From Candidatus Uhrbacteria bacterium (GTDB lineage Bacteria; Patescibacteriota; Patescibacteriia; UBA9934; GWF2-40-263), in assembly GCA_016219925.1 (NCBI GenBank), contig JACRJU010000013.1, positions 244,472 through 281,942 of the forward strand: DNA of 37,471 bases. The letters are read 5' to 3'. Of this stretch, positions 670-31,156 are shown piece by piece. The notes under the pieces were generated by a model, which saw only the letters and a list, made by a program, of their open reading frames with translations, was not told where the DNA came from and searched no databases. Position 1 is the stretch's first letter. Every line of letters starts with the position of its first letter. Made by a program: the position numbers and the translations under genes.

Positions 670-698
670 AGTTTAGGTCAAAAACAACCGATTGACAA
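670..698 (-). promoter_or_regulatory. Promoter of the GT2 gene, overlapping the divergent transporter promoter
   Basis: On the minus strand TTGTCA (698-693), a 17-nt spacer and TAAACT (675-670) lie 10 nt before the ATG at 659. The transcript would therefore be leaderless or nearly so. The -35 box is almost the reverse complement of the TTGACA used by the opposite promoter, so both directions share one core. Confidence 0.55.
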
Positions 699-720
699 TT
701 CGTGTCGACGATGATAAGAC
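692..720 (+). promoter_or_regulatory. Promoter of the MFS transporter unit
   Basis: A perfect TTGACA (692-697), a 17-nt spacer and TAAGAC (715-720) precede a leader of roughly 25 nt that ends in TGGAGG, 5 nt and ATG at 753. The same architecture recurs before the genes starting at 20560 and 23297. Confidence 0.6.
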
Positions 721-752
721 CAACTCGCCGATCGTATCGGATGGAGGATTCC

Positions 753-2222
753 ATGGCGACGCGTGCTTCGCTTCTGCAGTTCAGAACGAACGGGAGTCCC
801 GTTCACGCCCCAGCCTTTCGGCGGCGGCGTCTGCTCAACTGGTTGCCACTCGGACTGGGCTATGCAAGCCTGGTCTTCATGCGCTACAACCTCAACGCCG
901 CGCAGAGCGCTCTCTCGGCTGACAAGCTGATGACGCTCGACGACTTCGGCAAGATCTTCGCCGTCGGAGCGTGGGTCTACCTCGCCGGCTTCCTCTACTT
1001 CGGTCGCAAGACCGATGTACACGGAGGCCGCTGGGGCATGATCACCGGCATGACCGGCGCGACCGCTTCGACCCTATTGATGGCGCTCGCCGTGAAGGGC
1101 GTCATCGCTTGGCACTGGAACGTGTCGCTGTTCTGGATGATCCTCATCCTGTACAGCATCAACATGTTCTTCCAGTCGCTCGGTGCCATGTCGATCGTCA
1201 CGACCAAGATGCCGTGGTTCCACGTGCGCGAGCGCGGCACCTTCTCGACGATCTTCGGGATGATGATCTCGACCGGCATCTACTTCGCGTTCGACTGGGG
1301 CTACGCGCTGGTCAGCGCCACGCGCACGCAGATCAACCTACAGAAAATGGACGCGACCGCTCGGTTCTTCTCCGGATTGCTCGGCAGCGGAGGACACGAG
1401 GTCAACGAGAGCTGGTGGATCTTCCTGTTCCCCGCTCTGTTCGCTATCGTTTGGCTCGCCGTCATCATCCTGACGCTCCGCAACAAGCCATCCGACGCCG
1501 GGTTCGCGGACTTCGAGACCGGCGACGAGCACATCGCCGAGACGCCACTCACTATGGGGCAGATGCTCCGCGAAGTGTTCCTCAACCCCAAGCATCGGAC
1601 GATCCTGATCATCTGTCTGATCGAATTCTGCTCGGGTGGAGTGCGCAACGGCGTCATGCAGCTCTACCCGAAGTTCGCCGAGACCATCGGTTTCAAGCAC
1701 GAGTTCTGGATCAGCCAAAACTGGGGTCTGTCCCTGCTCATCGCCGGAATCATCGGTGCCAACGCCACCGGATGGGTGTCGGACAAAGTGTTTCGCTCCC
1801 GTCGCGGCCCGATGGCGCTGTTCTTGTACGGCGCCGTGATCGTTTGCGCGGTGTTGATGTTTTGGGAGCTTCCACATCACTACGGAAAGTACGGGGCTTC
1901 GCTGATCATGGGCATTGCGACTCTCGTCGCTTGCGCGGCCATCATCGGCGTGCACGGAATTCTCTCGGGTACGGCTGCGGCCGACTTCACCGGCGTGAAG
2001 AACACGGCCAAGGCCGTCGGCATCGTCGACGGTGCCGTGTACGCGGGAACCGGTGTGCAATCCTGGCTTACCGGACTCTTCCTCGCAAGCGGTCCGGAGG
2101 CAACCAATCCGAAATCTTGGGCCGCCTGGCCCATCATCATCGGCCTGTTCGCCCTGGGAGGCATATTCTTGAGCGGTTCAATCTACCACGCCTTCCCCAA
2201 GTCCAAGCGTGCCCCCCACTAG
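753..2222 (+). CDS. MFS transporter, organophosphate:phosphate antiporter-like, GC-rich
   Basis: A 489-residue polytopic membrane protein. The start is set at ATG 753 (MATRASLL) by GGAGG five nucleotides upstream; the ORF track's earlier GTG lies inside the promoter. After a basic N-terminus there are about 12 hydrophobic segments. Features that recall the GlpT/UhpT branch of the major facilitator superfamily are RYNLNAAQS in the first helix region, the loop FGRKTDVHGGRWG between helices 2 and 3, the RERGTFSTIFGM segment, and the late DFTGVKNTAKAVGIVDG motif. Members of that branch exchange sugar phosphates or glycerol-3-phosphate for phosphate; the substrate here is unknown. Codons end mostly in C or G, unlike both neighbours. 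The gene has its own promoter, ribosome site and terminator, which suggests acquisition as a self-contained unit. Confidence 0.82.
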   Translation: MATRASLLQFRTNGSPVHAPAFRRRRLLNWLPLGLGYASLVFMRYNLNAAQSALSADKLMTLDDFGKIFAVGAWVYLAGFLYFGRKTDVHGGRWGMITGMTGATASTLLMALAVKGVIAWHWNVSLFWMILILYSINMFFQSLGAMSIVTTKMPWFHVRERGTFSTIFGMMISTGIYFAFDWGYALVSATRTQINLQKMDATARFFSGLLGSGGHEVNESWWIFLFPALFAIVWLAVIILTLRNKPSDAGFADFETGDEHIAETPLTMGQMLREVFLNPKHRTILIICLIEFCSGGVRNGVMQLYPKFAETIGFKHEFWISQNWGLSLLIAGIIGANATGWVSDKVFRSRRGPMALFLYGAVIVCAVLMFWELPHHYGKYGASLIMGIATLVACAAIIGVHGILSGTAAADFTGVKNTAKAVGIVDGAVYAGTGVQSWLTGLFLASGPEATNPKSWAAWPIIIGLFALGGIFLSGSIYHAFPKSKRAPH

Positions 2223-2246
2223 GCGCCACAACCTCCACGCAACCTC

Positions 2247-2272
2247 CAGAGCTTCACAAGAGCTCTGTTTTT
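2247..2272 (+). terminator. Intrinsic terminator of the transporter gene
   Basis: CAGAGCT (2247-2253) pairs perfectly with AGCTCTG (2261-2267) around a 7-nt loop and is followed by TTTTT. It lies 24 nt after the transporter stop and separates that gene from the methyltransferase. Confidence 0.85.
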
Positions 2273-2281
2273 CTTTATACT
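2253..2281 (+). promoter_or_regulatory. Promoter of the rRNA methyltransferase, nested in the terminator
   Basis: TTCACA (2253-2258), 17 nt and TATACT (2276-2281) lie 9 nt before ATG 2291. The -35 box falls in the loop of the preceding terminator. A leaderless or near-leaderless transcript is implied; no Shine-Dalgarno is visible. Confidence 0.5.
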
Positions 2282-19654: not shown

Positions 19655-19676
19655 GAAAAAAGACCCGAAAGGGTCT
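19655..19676 (-). terminator. Terminator of the pgeF-like gene
   Basis: On the minus strand AGACCC, loop TTTC and GGGTCT are followed by TTTTTT. The stem begins at the last base of the stop codon. Confidence 0.85.
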
Positions 19677-20560
19677 CAGTTGAGCTTCACCACCACGAGA
19701 TTGCGCATCAGCGCATTGCGGCGGTTGGAGTGAAACAGCGGCTCGGAGCCATCGCTCGAGGTGGCGGTGTCGAAGCCATCCCAGACCATGTTGTCAAATG
19801 GGATCCCCAACTTCCAGAGCTGGACCTTCGCCAGAGCCACCAGATCGATCTTGCCCTGCACGGAATCCGTGACGATCGGCGGCTGATCGCGAAGCTGTCC
19901 GGCGTGCATCGCGTACTTCTGGGTGAGATGCCTGATGAGCTGGGCGTTGGCCGCGGCGTACTTGTTGGGAACCGGATTCCCGTCCGGACCCGGCACCATC
20001 TCGGTGGTCGGATGGACGAAGGTCTCCGGACCGATGCCGGCGGCCAGGAAGACGAGGAGCTTGCTAGGGTCGACTCTCGCGTACCTGTTGAGCGCATCGA
20101 GGCCGGCTTCGATGACCGAGGCGTACTGGCGCGGTGGCTTCCCCGCAAGCCGCTCGCGGTCGATGAGCGCGTTGCGTCCGCAGTGCAGAGCGACCAGAGT
20201 ATGCTGGTAACAATCGTACACTACGGTCGTGAGACAATCAGCGCTCGCCAGGATGTAGGCGTCACCGGACTCTGTCAGGAGCACGCCGTCGGCGTCAACC
20301 CCACGGAAGAAACGTGGCAATCGTTCGACGGTGAGCTGGCTGGGCTCGCAGACCATGGCGTGGAACGCCGGCCGCGGCACCAGAGCCCGATGGATCTCGA
20401 GCTGATCCATCACTTCGGCGATGTCCGCCGAGACCCCGGGGTTGTTGGCTTCGATGGCCTCGGGCGTTTCGCCCGCGAAGTTCCAGTTGCGAACCGTGCC
20501 GAACACGGCCACCAGCACGTCACCATGCCACAACCCTTTCACATACGCCGGAGACTTCAT
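19676..20560 (-). CDS. pgeF: PgeF-like multicopper-oxidase-fold (laccase domain) protein, GC-rich
   Basis: A 294-residue protein of the YfiH/PgeF family (Pfam Cu-oxidase_4 fold). The start is ATG 20560 (MKSPAYVKG), set by GGAGG 5 nt upstream; the track's start lies 66 nt earlier. The three zinc-ligand positions of the family appear as H67 (AFHAMV), C109 (SADC) and H126 (ALHCGRN), followed by AAGIGPETF and the C-terminal SNRRN, which resembles the usual SYRRD block. In E. coli PgeF removes L-Ser wrongly placed on UDP-MurNAc by MurC; other members cleave purine nucleosides. Its position between murC and murB supports a peptidoglycan-editing role. Codon use is GC-rich, unlike both neighbours, and it has its own promoter and terminator, so it was probably acquired as a unit. 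Confidence 0.8.
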   Translation of the reverse strand: MKSPAYVKGLWHGDVLVAVFGTVRNWNFAGETPEAIEANNPGVSADIAEVMDQLEIHRALVPRPAFHAMVCEPSQLTVERLPRFFRGVDADGVLLTESGDAYILASADCLTTVVYDCYQHTLVALHCGRNALIDRERLAGKPPRQYASVIEAGLDALNRYARVDPSKLLVFLAAGIGPETFVHPTTEMVPGPDGNPVPNKYAAANAQLIRHLTQKYAMHAGQLRDQPPIVTDSVQGKIDLVALAKVQLWKLGIPFDNMVWDGFDTATSSDGSEPLFHSNRRNALMRNLVVVKLN

Positions 20561-20597
20561 GCGATCCTCCACTTGTACACCTAATGTGCAAGAGCAG

Positions 20598-20626
20598 ACG
20601 CTATCAGAAAACCGCCACGATGTCAA
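20598..20626 (-). promoter_or_regulatory. Promoter of the pgeF-like unit
   Basis: On the minus strand TTGACA (20626-20621), 17 nt and TAGCGT (20603-20598) precede a leader of about 30 nt with TGGAGG and 5 nt before the ATG. It begins about 20 nt after the murC stop. Confidence 0.6.
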
Positions 20627-22055: not shown

Positions 22056-22079
22056 AAAAAAGAGCCAGTCGAATGGCTC
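22056..22079 (-). terminator. Terminator of the GC-rich orphan gene
   Basis: On the minus strand GAGCCA, 6-nt loop and TGGCTC are followed by TTTTTT. It lies 7 nt after the stop. Confidence 0.85.
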
Positions 22080-22085
22080 CCGAGT

Positions 22086-23297
22086 TCACGTTGCATGTGT
22101 GCGATCGGTGATCAGCATCACCACATCGCCCACCACGCCGTTGTAACTGATCGAACCGTCTGGGCGAAGGTTCCATGCGTACTCAAGGGCATCGTGACGC
22201 CGACTGTTAACGATGGCGCGACGAAAACGGCCGTTGCTTTCGATCCAGGCATCCAAACGTCCGCGGTTTCCCACCACGAAATCGACAAAGAAATGCCCGG
22301 GCTTCGCCTGAATATTCTGGCGGTGCGTCACCAGACTCATCGGACCGTCGCCTTGCAGACCCGCATGGATACACGCCATACACCACACCCCATTCGGCGA
22401 CCACGCAAGGTCTCCAGCTCCTAGAGCGAACAGCCCCTCAAACTGCACGCCACAATTCATGACCAGTCGCCGTACCGTCTTTCCTTCCGTACTCACGCGA
22501 ACGAGATAGGCCAAACCTTTCTCATCCGGCGACGTCCACATTCGCTCGAGGATTCCCTCGACAGACAGCACCCTTTCTCGACCGTTGCCTGGAGCGTTGA
22601 AGAGTTGGACGAAGGAGTGATCTTCTGTCCGCAGACCAATGGCATAGCGTCTTCGCCATCGCCCCAATCCAGTGATCTCGGTTGAACAAGAGATCGGTAG
22701 AGGATACCAGTCCTCGAACCCTCCGCGCCCAACGGTGTAGCGATAGCGCATCCCAGCGATCGGCTCCAACACGAGGAGGCGTTGATCCTGCAAACCACTG
22801 ACGATGGCCCGCATGTTCACATGAAGCACATCCGGCAAACCGGGGCTGACGATCCGGCAGATGTCCATCTCATCCTGCCGATGTCTGGCGAAGATGACAG
22901 GCCCAGCTGGGCCATACTGAATGCCCAGGACATCGTCGGCCTGACAAAGCGTTTGGATGCTTTGTGTGGTCACCCGTACGATCGCAGATCGATTCTCACC
23001 CGCGAGACGGCCGAAAATGATCACCGAAGAGCCGTCCACCCACAGGGCGACCGGCCGATCACCGATGAAAGCTGCAGACAGCTGTTGGCCATTCAGACAA
23101 GGCCATATCAGCCCGCTGGGACCGAACATCCAACTTGCCGCGCTTCGCCCGTCGGCACTCACAATCAGCTCGCCCGAGGCGAGCATCGCTCGAATGCGAT
23201 CATGATGGAGCGCTTCACCGAGATGAAGCACGTGTTGGTACAGCCCGTGAAACGCGGACTGTCTGACTTCAACAGCTTTTGCGCAACAGGCCAACAT
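22086..23297 (-). CDS. Hypothetical protein, possibly beta-propeller, GC-rich
   Basis: A 403-residue protein that I do not recognise. The start ATG 23297 (MLACCAKAVEV) is set by GGAGG 5 nt upstream; the track's GTG start is in the leader. There is no signal peptide or transmembrane segment, so it is probably cytoplasmic. The sequence is rich in short beta strands that recur about every 45-55 residues with turns such as GRLAGENRSAIVRV, MWTSPDEKGLAYLVRV, DLAWSPNGVWCMACI and AWNLRPDGSISYNGV, the look of a WD40- or TolB-like propeller; this is inference from pattern. Codon use is strongly GC-biased. It has its own promoter and terminator and is divergent from glyA, with shared -35 sequence. Confidence 0.75.
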   Translation of the reverse strand: MLACCAKAVEVRQSAFHGLYQHVLHLGEALHHDRIRAMLASGELIVSADGRSAASWMFGPSGLIWPCLNGQQLSAAFIGDRPVALWVDGSSVIIFGRLAGENRSAIVRVTTQSIQTLCQADDVLGIQYGPAGPVIFARHRQDEMDICRIVSPGLPDVLHVNMRAIVSGLQDQRLLVLEPIAGMRYRYTVGRGGFEDWYPLPISCSTEITGLGRWRRRYAIGLRTEDHSFVQLFNAPGNGRERVLSVEGILERMWTSPDEKGLAYLVRVSTEGKTVRRLVMNCGVQFEGLFALGAGDLAWSPNGVWCMACIHAGLQGDGPMSLVTHRQNIQAKPGHFFVDFVVGNRGRLDAWIESNGRFRRAIVNSRRHDALEYAWNLRPDGSISYNGVVGDVVMLITDRTHAT

Positions 23298-23324
23298 GAA
23301 AACCTCCACTCGCACGGTCACTTC

Positions 23325-23353
23325 AACCTATGAATTTTTTTGAGATTTGTCAA
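23325..23353 (-). promoter_or_regulatory. Promoter of the GC-rich orphan unit
   Basis: On the minus strand TTGACA (23353-23348), 17 nt and TAGGTT (23330-23325) precede a leader of about 21 nt ending in TGGAGG, 5 nt and ATG 23297. The -35 overlaps that of glyA on the other strand. Confidence 0.6.
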
Positions 23354-23375
23354 TGTTCTAACGCTCTCGTACAAT
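23347..23375 (+). promoter_or_regulatory. Promoter of glyA-recR
   Basis: TTGTCA (23347-23352), 17 nt and TACAAT (23370-23375) lie 9 nt before ATG 23385, predicting a near-leaderless transcript. The -35 is shared, in reverse, with the divergent orphan gene. Confidence 0.6.
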
Positions 23376-27326: not shown

Positions 27327-28811
27327 ATGTCAGAAACCTCACGTGTCCCTCCTCAGAATATCGAAGCCGAGCAATCTCTTTTGGGCTGTTTGCTTATTGA
27401 CCAAGACGCCGTCGTGCGCATTGCCGACCGCCTGATGTCTGATGATTTTTATCGCCCGGCACATCAAAAAATTTTTGAAGTCATGTTGGATTTGTTCGAG
27501 CGACATGATCCGATTGATATTCTTTCTTTAGGAAATCGTCTGGAAGAGAAAGGGCTTCTTCAGCAAGTTGGCGGTCGCGCGTATCTCGTTGAACTCTCCA
27601 ACATGGAACCGACCTCGGCCCATGTGCTTCACTACGCCGAAATCGTTCAAAAAAAAGCGACTCTGCGGCGCCTCTTGCAAACGGCCGCGGAGATCGCTCA
27701 AATGGGTCACCATGAAGAAGAGGATATCGATATCACGCTTGATCAAGCCGAACGCTCTCTTTTTCAGGTTTCTGAAAAATACAACAAGAACACCTTTATC
27801 TCGATCCGGAGTGTTCTACACGATGCCTTTGATCGCATTGATGAACTTCATAAGGAGCGCGGGAAATTGCGCGGCCTTCCCAGTGGTTTCGGAGAATTGG
27901 ATGCTCTGCTTGCGGGTTTCCAAAAATCCGACCTCATTATTCTCGCCGCTCGTCCGTCTGTTGGAAAGACATCCCTCGCTCTCGATATCGCTCGTCAGAT
28001 TGGCGTTCAAGCAAAATTGCCCGTGGGTTTTTTCTCTCTGGAAATGAGTAAGGAACAGCTCGTGGATCGGATGATCTGCGCGCAAGCGGGAGTAGATTTG
28101 TGGAAACTGCGTACGGGTCGTCTGTCGGATCGCGATGATGATTTTCCGCGCATCGGCCATGCCCTGGGTGAGCTTTCGGAAGCGCCGATTTTTATTGATG
28201 ACAGTGCCCAACTTAATGTGATGCAGCTGCGCACCAAAGCGCGTCGACTCAAAACAGAACATGGTCTCGGCATCATCATGGTGGATTACCTTCAGCTTAT
28301 GGAAGGCCGATCGTTTAAAGGATCCGATAACCGCGTCCAGGAAGTCTCTGAAATTTCACGCGGCCTCAAACAAATCGCCAAAGAGCTCAATGTGCCCGTG
28401 CTTGCGCTCGCCCAGCTTTCGCGCGCGGTTGAACAGACACGCCCCGCCATCCCTCACCTCTCGCATTTGCGCGATTCGGGTTCCATTGAACAAGATGCGG
28501 ATGTCGTTCTGTTCATCTATCGCAAATCATCGGATCGCAATTACCAGATTGAAGACATCCCGCCCGAAGAGCGAAACATCGCCGAGGTGCACATCGCCAA
28601 ACACCGCAACGGCCCCACGGGAAAGATACGCCTCTATTTTGAAGCGACACGCGCGAGTTTCCAAAACCTTGAAACACGCCCAGGATACGCCGCGGTGCCT
28701 CGTCCACAGGAAAATGGTCTCGCTCCGCTCGCAACTCCACCTACCGGACCTGATCCACGCGATCTTCCCCCGCCACCATTGGATCCAAATCCAAGTGGGG
28801 ATATGATATAG
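27327..28811 (+). CDS. dnaB: Replicative DNA helicase DnaB
   Basis: A 494-residue replicative helicase that unwinds DNA at the fork as a hexamer. The N-terminal domain opens with PPQNIEAEQSLLGCLL; the RecA-like domain carries Walker A AARPSVGKTSLALDIA, FSLEMSKEQLVDRM, Walker B IIMVDYLQLM, and RDSGSIEQDADVVLFIYR near the end. The C-terminus adds a Pro-rich tail of about 45 residues (LATPPTGPDPRDLPPPP). No intein or insertion is seen. It is followed by ybaB after 38 nt, with a weak promoter-like TATCTA in between. Confidence 0.96.
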   Translation: MSETSRVPPQNIEAEQSLLGCLLIDQDAVVRIADRLMSDDFYRPAHQKIFEVMLDLFERHDPIDILSLGNRLEEKGLLQQVGGRAYLVELSNMEPTSAHVLHYAEIVQKKATLRRLLQTAAEIAQMGHHEEEDIDITLDQAERSLFQVSEKYNKNTFISIRSVLHDAFDRIDELHKERGKLRGLPSGFGELDALLAGFQKSDLIILAARPSVGKTSLALDIARQIGVQAKLPVGFFSLEMSKEQLVDRMICAQAGVDLWKLRTGRLSDRDDDFPRIGHALGELSEAPIFIDDSAQLNVMQLRTKARRLKTEHGLGIIMVDYLQLMEGRSFKGSDNRVQEVSEISRGLKQIAKELNVPVLALAQLSRAVEQTRPAIPHLSHLRDSGSIEQDADVVLFIYRKSSDRNYQIEDIPPEERNIAEVHIAKHRNGPTGKIRLYFEATRASFQNLETRPGYAAVPRPQENGLAPLATPPTGPDPRDLPPPPLDPNPSGDMI

Positions 28812-29155: not shown

Positions 29156-29185
29156 AAAAGCACCCGTCGAGAGACGGGTGTTTTT
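29154..29185. terminator. Bidirectional terminator between ybaB and the ABC exporter
   Basis: A perfect 8-bp stem CACCCGTC/GACGGGTG with loop GAGA has A6 before and T5 after it, so it can stop transcription from both convergent genes. The T-run overlaps the exporter's stop codon. Confidence 0.9.
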
Positions 29186-30917
29186 AGTTGACGAACCCTC
29201 CGGCTTGGATCTCCCACAGATTCTTGTAGATCCCGCCTTTGTGTCGGATGAGCTGGCTATGCGTGCCATCATCCACAACGCGCCCATCGTCGATCACGAG
29301 AATACGATCCATCTCCATGATCGTCGAGAGTCGATGTGCGATAACGATAGCGGTCTTGTCGCACATCAGTTCGTGCAGAGCTTGTTGGATGAGCTGTTCG
29401 GACTCGGAGTCAAGCGAGGAGGTTGCCTCATCAAGCACGAGAATTGGCGCGTCCTTGAGAATCGCGCGAGCAATGGCCACGCGCTGACGTTCCCCTCCCG
29501 AAAGCTTCACCCCACGTTCCCCGACATAGGTGTTGTAGCCGTCCTGCAGTTCGAGAATGAACTCATGGCACCGAGCTTTCTTGGCCGCTTCAATCACCTC
29601 TTCATCTGTGGCGCCGGGCCGGCCGTAGCGGATGTTTTCCCTAATGGTTCGATGGAAGAGAATCGGTTCCTGCGGCACCACCGCGATCGCCGCGCGCAAA
29701 CTTTCTTGCGTCACCTTGGCGATGTTCTGATTGCCGATGAGAATCTTTCCGCGTTCGATGTCATAGAACCGAAGCAGGAGTTTTGTGATGGTCGTCTTCC
29801 CCGCTCCTGACGGTCCCACCAATGCCACCTTTTGCCCAGGCTCAATCGCCACATTGAGACCTTTGAGCACGCGGCGAGTCTTGTTAAAACTGAAGTAGAC
29901 GTTTTGGAAGGTGATGCCGCCCCCCTGGAAACTAAGGGGTTTCGCGCCACGCGCATCCACGATGTCTGGCGAGGCTTCCATGATCTCCACCATCTCACTG
30001 GCATCGGCAATGGATTCATAGGTCTTGCGAATAGCACGACCCAGATCCCACAGCTTGCCAAACATGCCGACCAGATACCCTTGGATCAAAGCGAAATCTC
30101 CGATCGTGAGCATCCCACGCTGCCAAAAATGGATAGCCGTGTACATCAGGGCAAATTCGATCACGAACATGAGCCCCGCTTGCATGGCATCCGTGATCTC
30201 ACCCAAATTCCACGTGAGCATTTGCATCCGACGCAGACGCTCCGTCACCTCTTGATAGAGCGACCGCTCGTGACCAAAGCCGGTAAAGAGTTTGATCGTC
30301 ACGGCATTGGCGATGGAGTCCGCCAGAACGCCGGTGGCCTCCGAATCGATTTCGACTCGCTTGGCGTCGTACTTCATCTTCCACATCGAGAACCAGATGT
30401 TGAAGGCAATGAAAACGACCATCCAAACAAGCAGAATGACGGCGAGCAGGTAATGGCGCAAATACAGGACGACGAGATTTCCTGTGATCATGATTGCCAA
30501 AGGGATGTACCTGAACTGCAGTTGGTCTGTCAGTTCCTCGTAAGCGCGTTCAATGCGTCCGACTTTGCGAACGAGCGAACCCGCAAAGTTGTCGAGGAAG
30601 AAGGCGTACGAGTGGCGATGCAAGGAGGCATGGGCCGACTGCACGATGTCTGCCATAACGCTCGGTTGCAACCAGTTGTGTACAACTCCCATGGAACGCC
30701 ACAAGAGCCAACCGATTGCATGGAAGATGAGAACGGCGACGATGGCTCCGACGAGCCCGCTCGTACGTTCATCCGCCGTGAGCGTTTGCGTCCCGGCGAG
30801 CAAATCAAAAAACTTTTTGTAGTAGAGCGGCACAACGATGTTGGCCGTTTCCGAGAGTATCACGGCGCCGATGACGTAGAAATACGCGAGCTTATATTGA
30901 CTCGCGTACGTCCACAA
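29184..30917 (-). CDS. ABC exporter (fused transmembrane and ATPase domains), 5' end frameshifted
   Basis: A half-transporter of about 590 residues, an exporter of unknown lipid, peptide or drug substrate. The N-terminal region has about six helices; the ATPase shows Walker A VGPSGAGKTTITK, signature LSGGERQRVAIARAI, Walker B PILVLDEATSSLDSESE and the H-loop IAHRLSTIM. The in-frame start is a TTG at 30917. A better start, ATG 30952, has GGAGGAGG about 11 nt upstream but is out of frame: it joins the exporter frame only if the A6 tract (minus strand, 30934-30929) had seven A residues, giving MESIHTKKILGRLWTY. So either a sequencing error, a true frameshift or slippage. Codons are more GC-ending than most neighbours. 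The element at 31028-31298 lies upstream. Confidence 0.88.
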   Translation of the reverse strand: MWTYASQYKLAYFYVIGAVILSETANIVVPLYYKKFFDLLAGTQTLTADERTSGLVGAIVAVLIFHAIGWLLWRSMGVVHNWLQPSVMADIVQSAHASLHRHSYAFFLDNFAGSLVRKVGRIERAYEELTDQLQFRYIPLAIMITGNLVVLYLRHYLLAVILLVWMVVFIAFNIWFSMWKMKYDAKRVEIDSEATGVLADSIANAVTIKLFTGFGHERSLYQEVTERLRRMQMLTWNLGEITDAMQAGLMFVIEFALMYTAIHFWQRGMLTIGDFALIQGYLVGMFGKLWDLGRAIRKTYESIADASEMVEIMEASPDIVDARGAKPLSFQGGGITFQNVYFSFNKTRRVLKGLNVAIEPGQKVALVGPSGAGKTTITKLLLRFYDIERGKILIGNQNIAKVTQESLRAAIAVVPQEPILFHRTIRENIRYGRPGATDEEVIEAAKKARCHEFILELQDGYNTYVGERGVKLSGGERQRVAIARAILKDAPILVLDEATSSLDSESEQLIQQALHELMCDKTAIVIAHRLSTIMEMDRILVIDDGRVVDDGTHSQLIRHKGGIYKNLWEIQAGGFVN

Positions 30918-31156
30918 GCGCCCAAGAATTTTTTGGTGTGTATGGATTCCATAGGTTTATTTTCCCTCCTCCTAACGTTACTCACAATGGGCGAAGGCCA
31001 TTGCGGCAGATTCGCAATCTTTTTAGCCGGTTGAACCTGTCCGACCAAAACCGTGTCGAAGGGACATGACCAAAGGTCATATCCCGTTCGTTCGCTCGGT
31101 AGTGAACAAACAAAATTTTGTTCACTACACTCGCTCCGCTCCGGGATCGCCATTGC

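Follow-up and report, generated by a model that had tools for sequence, protein, structure and literature searches.

Three genes of the Uhrbacteria genome G000, encoding an MFS transporter, a laccase-domain (PgeF-like) protein and an orphan protein, probably belong to a standing class of accessory genes found throughout the family, beside which lies a core that is poor in Shine-Dalgarno (SD) sites and apparently in part leaderless. MurC assigns the genome to Candidatus Uhrbacteria. All three lie in the window, the stretch of 37,471 nucleotides at the end of contig C10 that was analysed as a whole (Table 1). At each of them TTGACA, the 17-nt spacer and the −10 box are exactly as the initial annotation had given them, as are TGGAGG, the 5-nt spacer, the ATG and a terminator consisting of a stem-loop with a T run. 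The pattern TTGACA-17-TA-15/45-GGAGG-4/8-ATG has three matches in the window and none in 100 shuffles. Two details needed correction. The leader, put at 21-31 nt, measures 16-26 nt from the −10 box to the SD site and 27-37 nt from the −10 box to the ATG, and a GC-ending coding region is found in the transporter and pgeF-like genes, while the orphan gene is just mildly GC-rich. The anti-SD is present, and the SD sites are complementary to the 16S tail at 4-9 nt, as in SD-led units. A search for RNA elements gave no Rfam match in the window.

Table 1. Positions in the window of the three cassettes and of the promoters that diverge from two of them.
Feature	Position	Strand	Description	Found by
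Glycosyltransferase-like gene, divergent promoter	670..698	-	TTGTCA-17-TAAACT; ATG at 659	
Transporter promoter	692..720	+	TTGACA (692-697), 17 nt, TAAGAC (715-720)	pattern search
Transporter SD site	742..752	+	TGGAGG + 5-nt spacer to ATG	
Transporter gene	753..2222	+	MFS, organophosphate-antiporter type (PgtP/GlpT-like), 489 aa, GC3 0.83	
Transporter intrinsic terminator	2247..2277	+	8-bp stem, then TTTTTCTTTA	
pgeF-like intrinsic terminator	19660..19677	-		
pgeF-like gene	19676..20560	-	Laccase-domain (PgeF-like) protein, 294 aa, GC3 0.81	
pgeF-like SD site	20561..20571	-	TGGAGG + 5-nt spacer to ATG	
pgeF-like promoter	20598..20626	-	TTGACA-17-TAGCGT	pattern search
Orphan intrinsic terminator	22060..22081	-		
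Orphan gene	22086..23297	-	403 aa, GC3 0.63	
Orphan SD site	23298..23308	-	TGGAGG + 5-nt spacer to ATG	
Orphan promoter	23325..23353	-	TTGACA-17-TAGGTT	pattern search
glyA, divergent promoter	23347..23375	+	TTGTCA-17-TACAAT, 9 nt before ATG 23385; leaderless type	

This layout is typical for the group, genome-wide and family-wide, and the suggestion that it is special to the three genes does not survive. Across the whole 874-kb genome, the promoter plus GGAGG occurs 14 times against once in a reversed control. The full pattern is present in 53 of 60 scanned relatives, the reversed control being almost always zero, and in 39 of 78 genomes of the wider phylum, mostly once or twice. Of the 31 TTGACA promoters that precede an SD-led gene in this group, 27 have a 17-nt spacer (decoy hexamer, 1), and GGAGG-to-start spacing clusters at 4-6 nt. 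The seemingly exact spacings are thus ordinary sigma-70 and SD geometry.

The transporter matches Pfam MFS_1 (E 2e-18) and NCBIfam TIGR00881 (1.5e-25, under its cut-off). Its orthologs in G006, G015, G027 and G032 are 57-59% identical, and the G006 ortholog also has the −35 and TAAGAC. In G024 (C7:4097-5195; L112, L121), an in-frame TGA breaks the transporter ortholog, which is probably decaying. The pgeF-like protein matches Pfam PF02578 above cut-off (E 1.5e-9) and NCBIfam PgeF far below cut-off; a PDB sequence search gave nothing for it. The orphan protein has no Pfam match, and a PDB sequence search likewise returned nothing. Its predicted fold is all-beta and beta-propeller-like: the AF2 model has a pLDDT of 72, and Foldseek matches are mostly propellers, with low TM-scores. 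Most orphan orthologs with a resolved start repeat the −35 and a TAGRTT-like −10.

The accessory class emerges from composition. Genes were called by a home-made simple codon-model script over 542 kb (62%) of this genome and 60-120 kb per relative. GC3 in G000 is clearly bimodal, the main mode lying close to 0.5 and the other at 0.75-0.95; genes with GC3 of at least 0.68 were taken as class B (57 of 499 sampled) and the core as class A. Class B averages 0.64/0.46/0.81 at GC1/GC2/GC3 against 0.58/0.39/0.52 for class A, is monocistronic in 82% of cases against 29%, and is SD-led in 67% against 10%. Five decoy motifs of equal GC occur in 6-17% of the high class, compared with 72% for the true SD, so the SD excess is not an artefact of base composition. 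When classes were set by GC3 alone in five genomes (88 GC-rich and 442 low-GC3 genes), the SD was found in 61 of 88 against 56 of 442 (p 1e-26) and the TTGAC promoter in 44 against 53 (p 3e-14). The initial annotation's claim is borne out in that a shared design goes with GC-rich coding, sets such genes apart from the core and does not descend from duplication. Neighbouring genes do mostly lack an SD (SD of at least 5 nt in 10% of low-GC3 genes vs 67-70% of high-GC3 genes), and AT-leaning genes are preceded by the motif combination far less often, not equally often. SD-led genes are richer in GC in G000, G005, G006, G015 and G022; G020 (64% GC) has no GC3 difference, and none is significant in G027, G036 and G045.

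Class B includes UPRTase, thioredoxin, acetyl-CoA synthetase, an OPT transporter, an aminotransferase, an aldehyde dehydrogenase, a GGDEF protein, MopE-repeat lipoproteins and many proteins without a Pfam match. The window holds a fourth class-B-like gene, for an ABC transporter (29184-30952, minus strand; GC3 0.69), with a strong terminator, no TTGACA and TAGGAGGAGGG upstream. The ATG that follows its SD does not share the reading frame of the 577-aa ORF, apparently owing to a frameshift or an assembly slip close to the start. Elsewhere in G000, five very GC-rich lipoprotein- or secreted-type genes stand in a row with long GC-rich spacers (C10:49833-58515; L017:9833-18515), most with MopE-type CDGxDNNCDG repeats and two with almost the same leader, about 90 nt long. 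At C6:89841-90878, a 345-aa gene with GC3 of 0.99 follows a 563-nt upstream gap with no clear standard-type promoter.

Core genes appear to start differently. A leaderless-type −10, 7-13 nt before the start, precedes none of 88 GC-rich heads and 95 of 442 low-GC3 heads, about a fifth, in the five genomes (p 8e-9); a control window of the same width further upstream has no class difference (5 of 88 vs 32 of 442). Pooled −10-to-start counts peak at 8 nt (39) and 9 nt (42), compared with a level of about 8 at each position. By standard sigma-70 geometry, a transcript from such a promoter would have its 5′ end at the start codon or no more than about 3 nt away from it. The remaining core genes may initiate in other SD-less ways. 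In the window, the leaderless type is represented by glyA, by the dnaB-like gene at 27327 and, to the left of the transporter, by the glycosyltransferase-like gene, whose −10 is about 10 nt from the ATG. The adk promoter 3′ of secY keeps the same −10 spacing in several genera, judging from junction sequences read by eye. In the open-licence literature, no paper was found that pairs Parcubacteria with leaderless or Uhrbacteria with codon usage; the sole relevant match for Patescibacteria names leaderless mRNA just for the factor YchF (PMC12641178).

The promoter itself is common to both classes. A promoter type unique to GC-rich genes was considered and rejected, since core heads also use TTGAC-17-TAnnnT, and the cassette promoter is of the sigma-70 type that is ordinary in this host. 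Two of the three cassettes diverge from a leaderless-type core gene and have the −35 in common with it, because TTGACAA reads TTGTCAA on the other strand. This holds for the orphan gene and glyA, and for the transporter and the glycosyltransferase-like gene, whose palindromic −35 recurs in the same arrangement in G006. As a general rule for divergent cassettes the common −35 was discarded, as it occurs in only 5 of 32.

Sequence architecture, statistics and conserved positions together suggest the following modes of expression. Each accessory gene would form its own transcription unit, at which the ordinary sigma-70 RNA polymerase would start from TTGACA-17-TAnnnT, and its short leader would bear a strong SD site pairing with the CCUCC tail of 16S rRNA. 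Transcription of the unit would stop at the intrinsic terminator. Most of the core would consist of SD-poor operon genes, the first genes often with a −10 box at 8-9 nt from the start codon, an arrangement that would place the 5′ end of the mRNA at or next to that codon. New accessory genes would enter singly between core genes; many, including the three in the window, would then stay put for very long while their proteins diverge fast, and a pressure acting on the coding sequence would hold their GC above that of the core.

It could instead be supposed that the cassettes are lone horizontal imports from GC-rich donors, brought in with promoter, SD and terminator and not yet adapted to the host. 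This reading has several points in its favor and is nonetheless unlikely. The functions include acquisition-typical ones (acetyl-CoA synthetase, OPT transporter, MopE-repeat lipoproteins), and the distribution is patchy: the transporter is found in 10 of 60 relatives, the pgeF-like gene in 8 and the orphan in 22, all of the same family. Absence from close relatives applies to some class-B genes. Acetyl-CoA synthetase has no ortholog in the 60 relatives, just a weak partial match in one. In the secY-adk gap of the ribosomal-protein operon, G000 alone carries a class-B gene (374 aa; L131:5398-6519, minus strand), which follows the secY terminator, precedes the adk promoter and is equipped with an SD and a terminator of its own. 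At this place in G006 and others, just a short gap separates terminator and promoter; the protein of the G000 gene has no strong relative in the 60 genomes. The gain of single units is thus real, but it is not a recent event for the three window genes. A slot between two conserved core genes, holding four class-B genes in G000 (C10:194464-198886) and two mostly different ones in G006 (C9:64357-66595), is a possible hotspot.

The position of the three genes speaks for long residence. G006, of another genus in the same family, is colinear with G000 over about 100 kb, including core neighbours of the cassettes such as murC and glyA, and preserves the slots, order and spacing of the transporter (58% identity), pgeF-like (48%) and orphan (30%) genes. 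Three more class-B genes are also slot-conserved there, and the orphan is at the same place in L035, L036 and L041 as well. The initial annotation had pictured moron-like scattered insertions, which sister synteny largely contradicts: wherever relatives carry these genes, they occupy the same place and are relatively GC-rich, the G006 copies being GC-richer than their neighbours, although many of the 60 relatives are without one or more. Ortholog identity averages 42% for class B and 64% for the core (p 7e-4). Class-B orthologs are more alike within genera, which fits inheritance, notwithstanding the orphan, which is 31% identical to its copy in the sole same-genus genome, where SecY is at 85%.

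Composition, too, argues against import. The six slot-conserved class-B genes keep their GC excess in G006 at near-saturated silent sites: 4-fold sites are 0.288 identical against 0.229 expected, a comparison of six ortholog pairs only, and GC4 in class B and class A is 0.83 vs 0.58 in G000 and 0.42 vs 0.28 in G006. Class-B GC follows host GC, GC3 of monocistronic SD-led genes being 0.49 in a 40% GC genome, 0.74 in G000 and 0.80 in G015. The excess lies mostly in the coding sequence and its immediate surroundings; the GC of leaders and promoters is like the host's, and leaders beyond about −40 resemble core ones. Within the block that was compared, GC3 is no higher in lineage-specific class-B genes (0.75-0.87) than in slot-conserved ones (0.63-0.95). 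Persistence at near-saturated sites, host tracking and coding location together weigh against an import relic for the slot-conserved genes, whose composition is not foreign and transient since the excess is kept. This argues for a pressure on the coding sequence that keeps class-B GC above the core; as to its nature, we infer that it is not purely synonymous choice, since GC1 and GC2 are also raised. Regional GC, as islands or biased conversion, was rejected because leaders beyond about −40 are not GC-rich, the MopE lipoprotein cluster being the exception. An SD compensating for GC-rich, structured mRNA is unlikely, as G020 genes are GC-rich yet mostly without SD.

That class B represents highly expressed genes with classic codon adaptation is very improbable. 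Strong promoters and SDs and a gain mainly in C-ending codons would fit, but for ribosomal proteins and EF-Tu GC3 is close to 0.5 and an SD is mostly missing, so class B is not the usual highly expressed codon class. The notion of phage morons or other mobile single-gene cassettes, scarcely credible overall and largely refuted for the three genes, accounts for the autonomous promoter-gene-terminator layout and for single-gene differences between otherwise colinear genomes, but 49 class-B proteins match 16 PHROG families against 62 for 48 core proteins, phage records gave no relatives of the orphan and pgeF-like proteins and just remote MFS matches, two queries gave no viral-contig relatives, no flanking repeats were found and positions are fixed in G006.

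The standing accessory class may be part of a wider pattern, which is put forward tentatively: Uhrbacteria would combine a leaderless, AT-leaning core with an SD-led, GC-rich accessory set, whose GC is kept over genus-level divergence by coding-level pressure and whose membership can be read from the type of translation start. If true, the start region alone would suffice to distinguish accessory genes from core genes in such uncultured bacteria, and gene starts in such genomes should be annotated with two models. GC outliers in them would not automatically be recent imports, and the usual rule of AT-rich accessory genes would be reversed.

Leaderless and SD-led initiation coexist in Actinobacteria, Deinococcus-Thermus and haloarchaea. 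Here too, a −10 at 8-9 nt marks one gene set and SD-led leaders another, but the split in Uhrbacteria follows core versus accessory status and codon composition. As in phage morons, a single gene comes with its own promoter and terminator; unlike morons, the window cassettes are not on prophages, are not phage-related and are positionally stable. Across 36 species, core genes are reported as a rule to be GC-richer than accessory genes (PMC5303225). Accessory genes differ from the core in GC here as well, but in the opposite direction, the accessory genes being the GC-richer ones.
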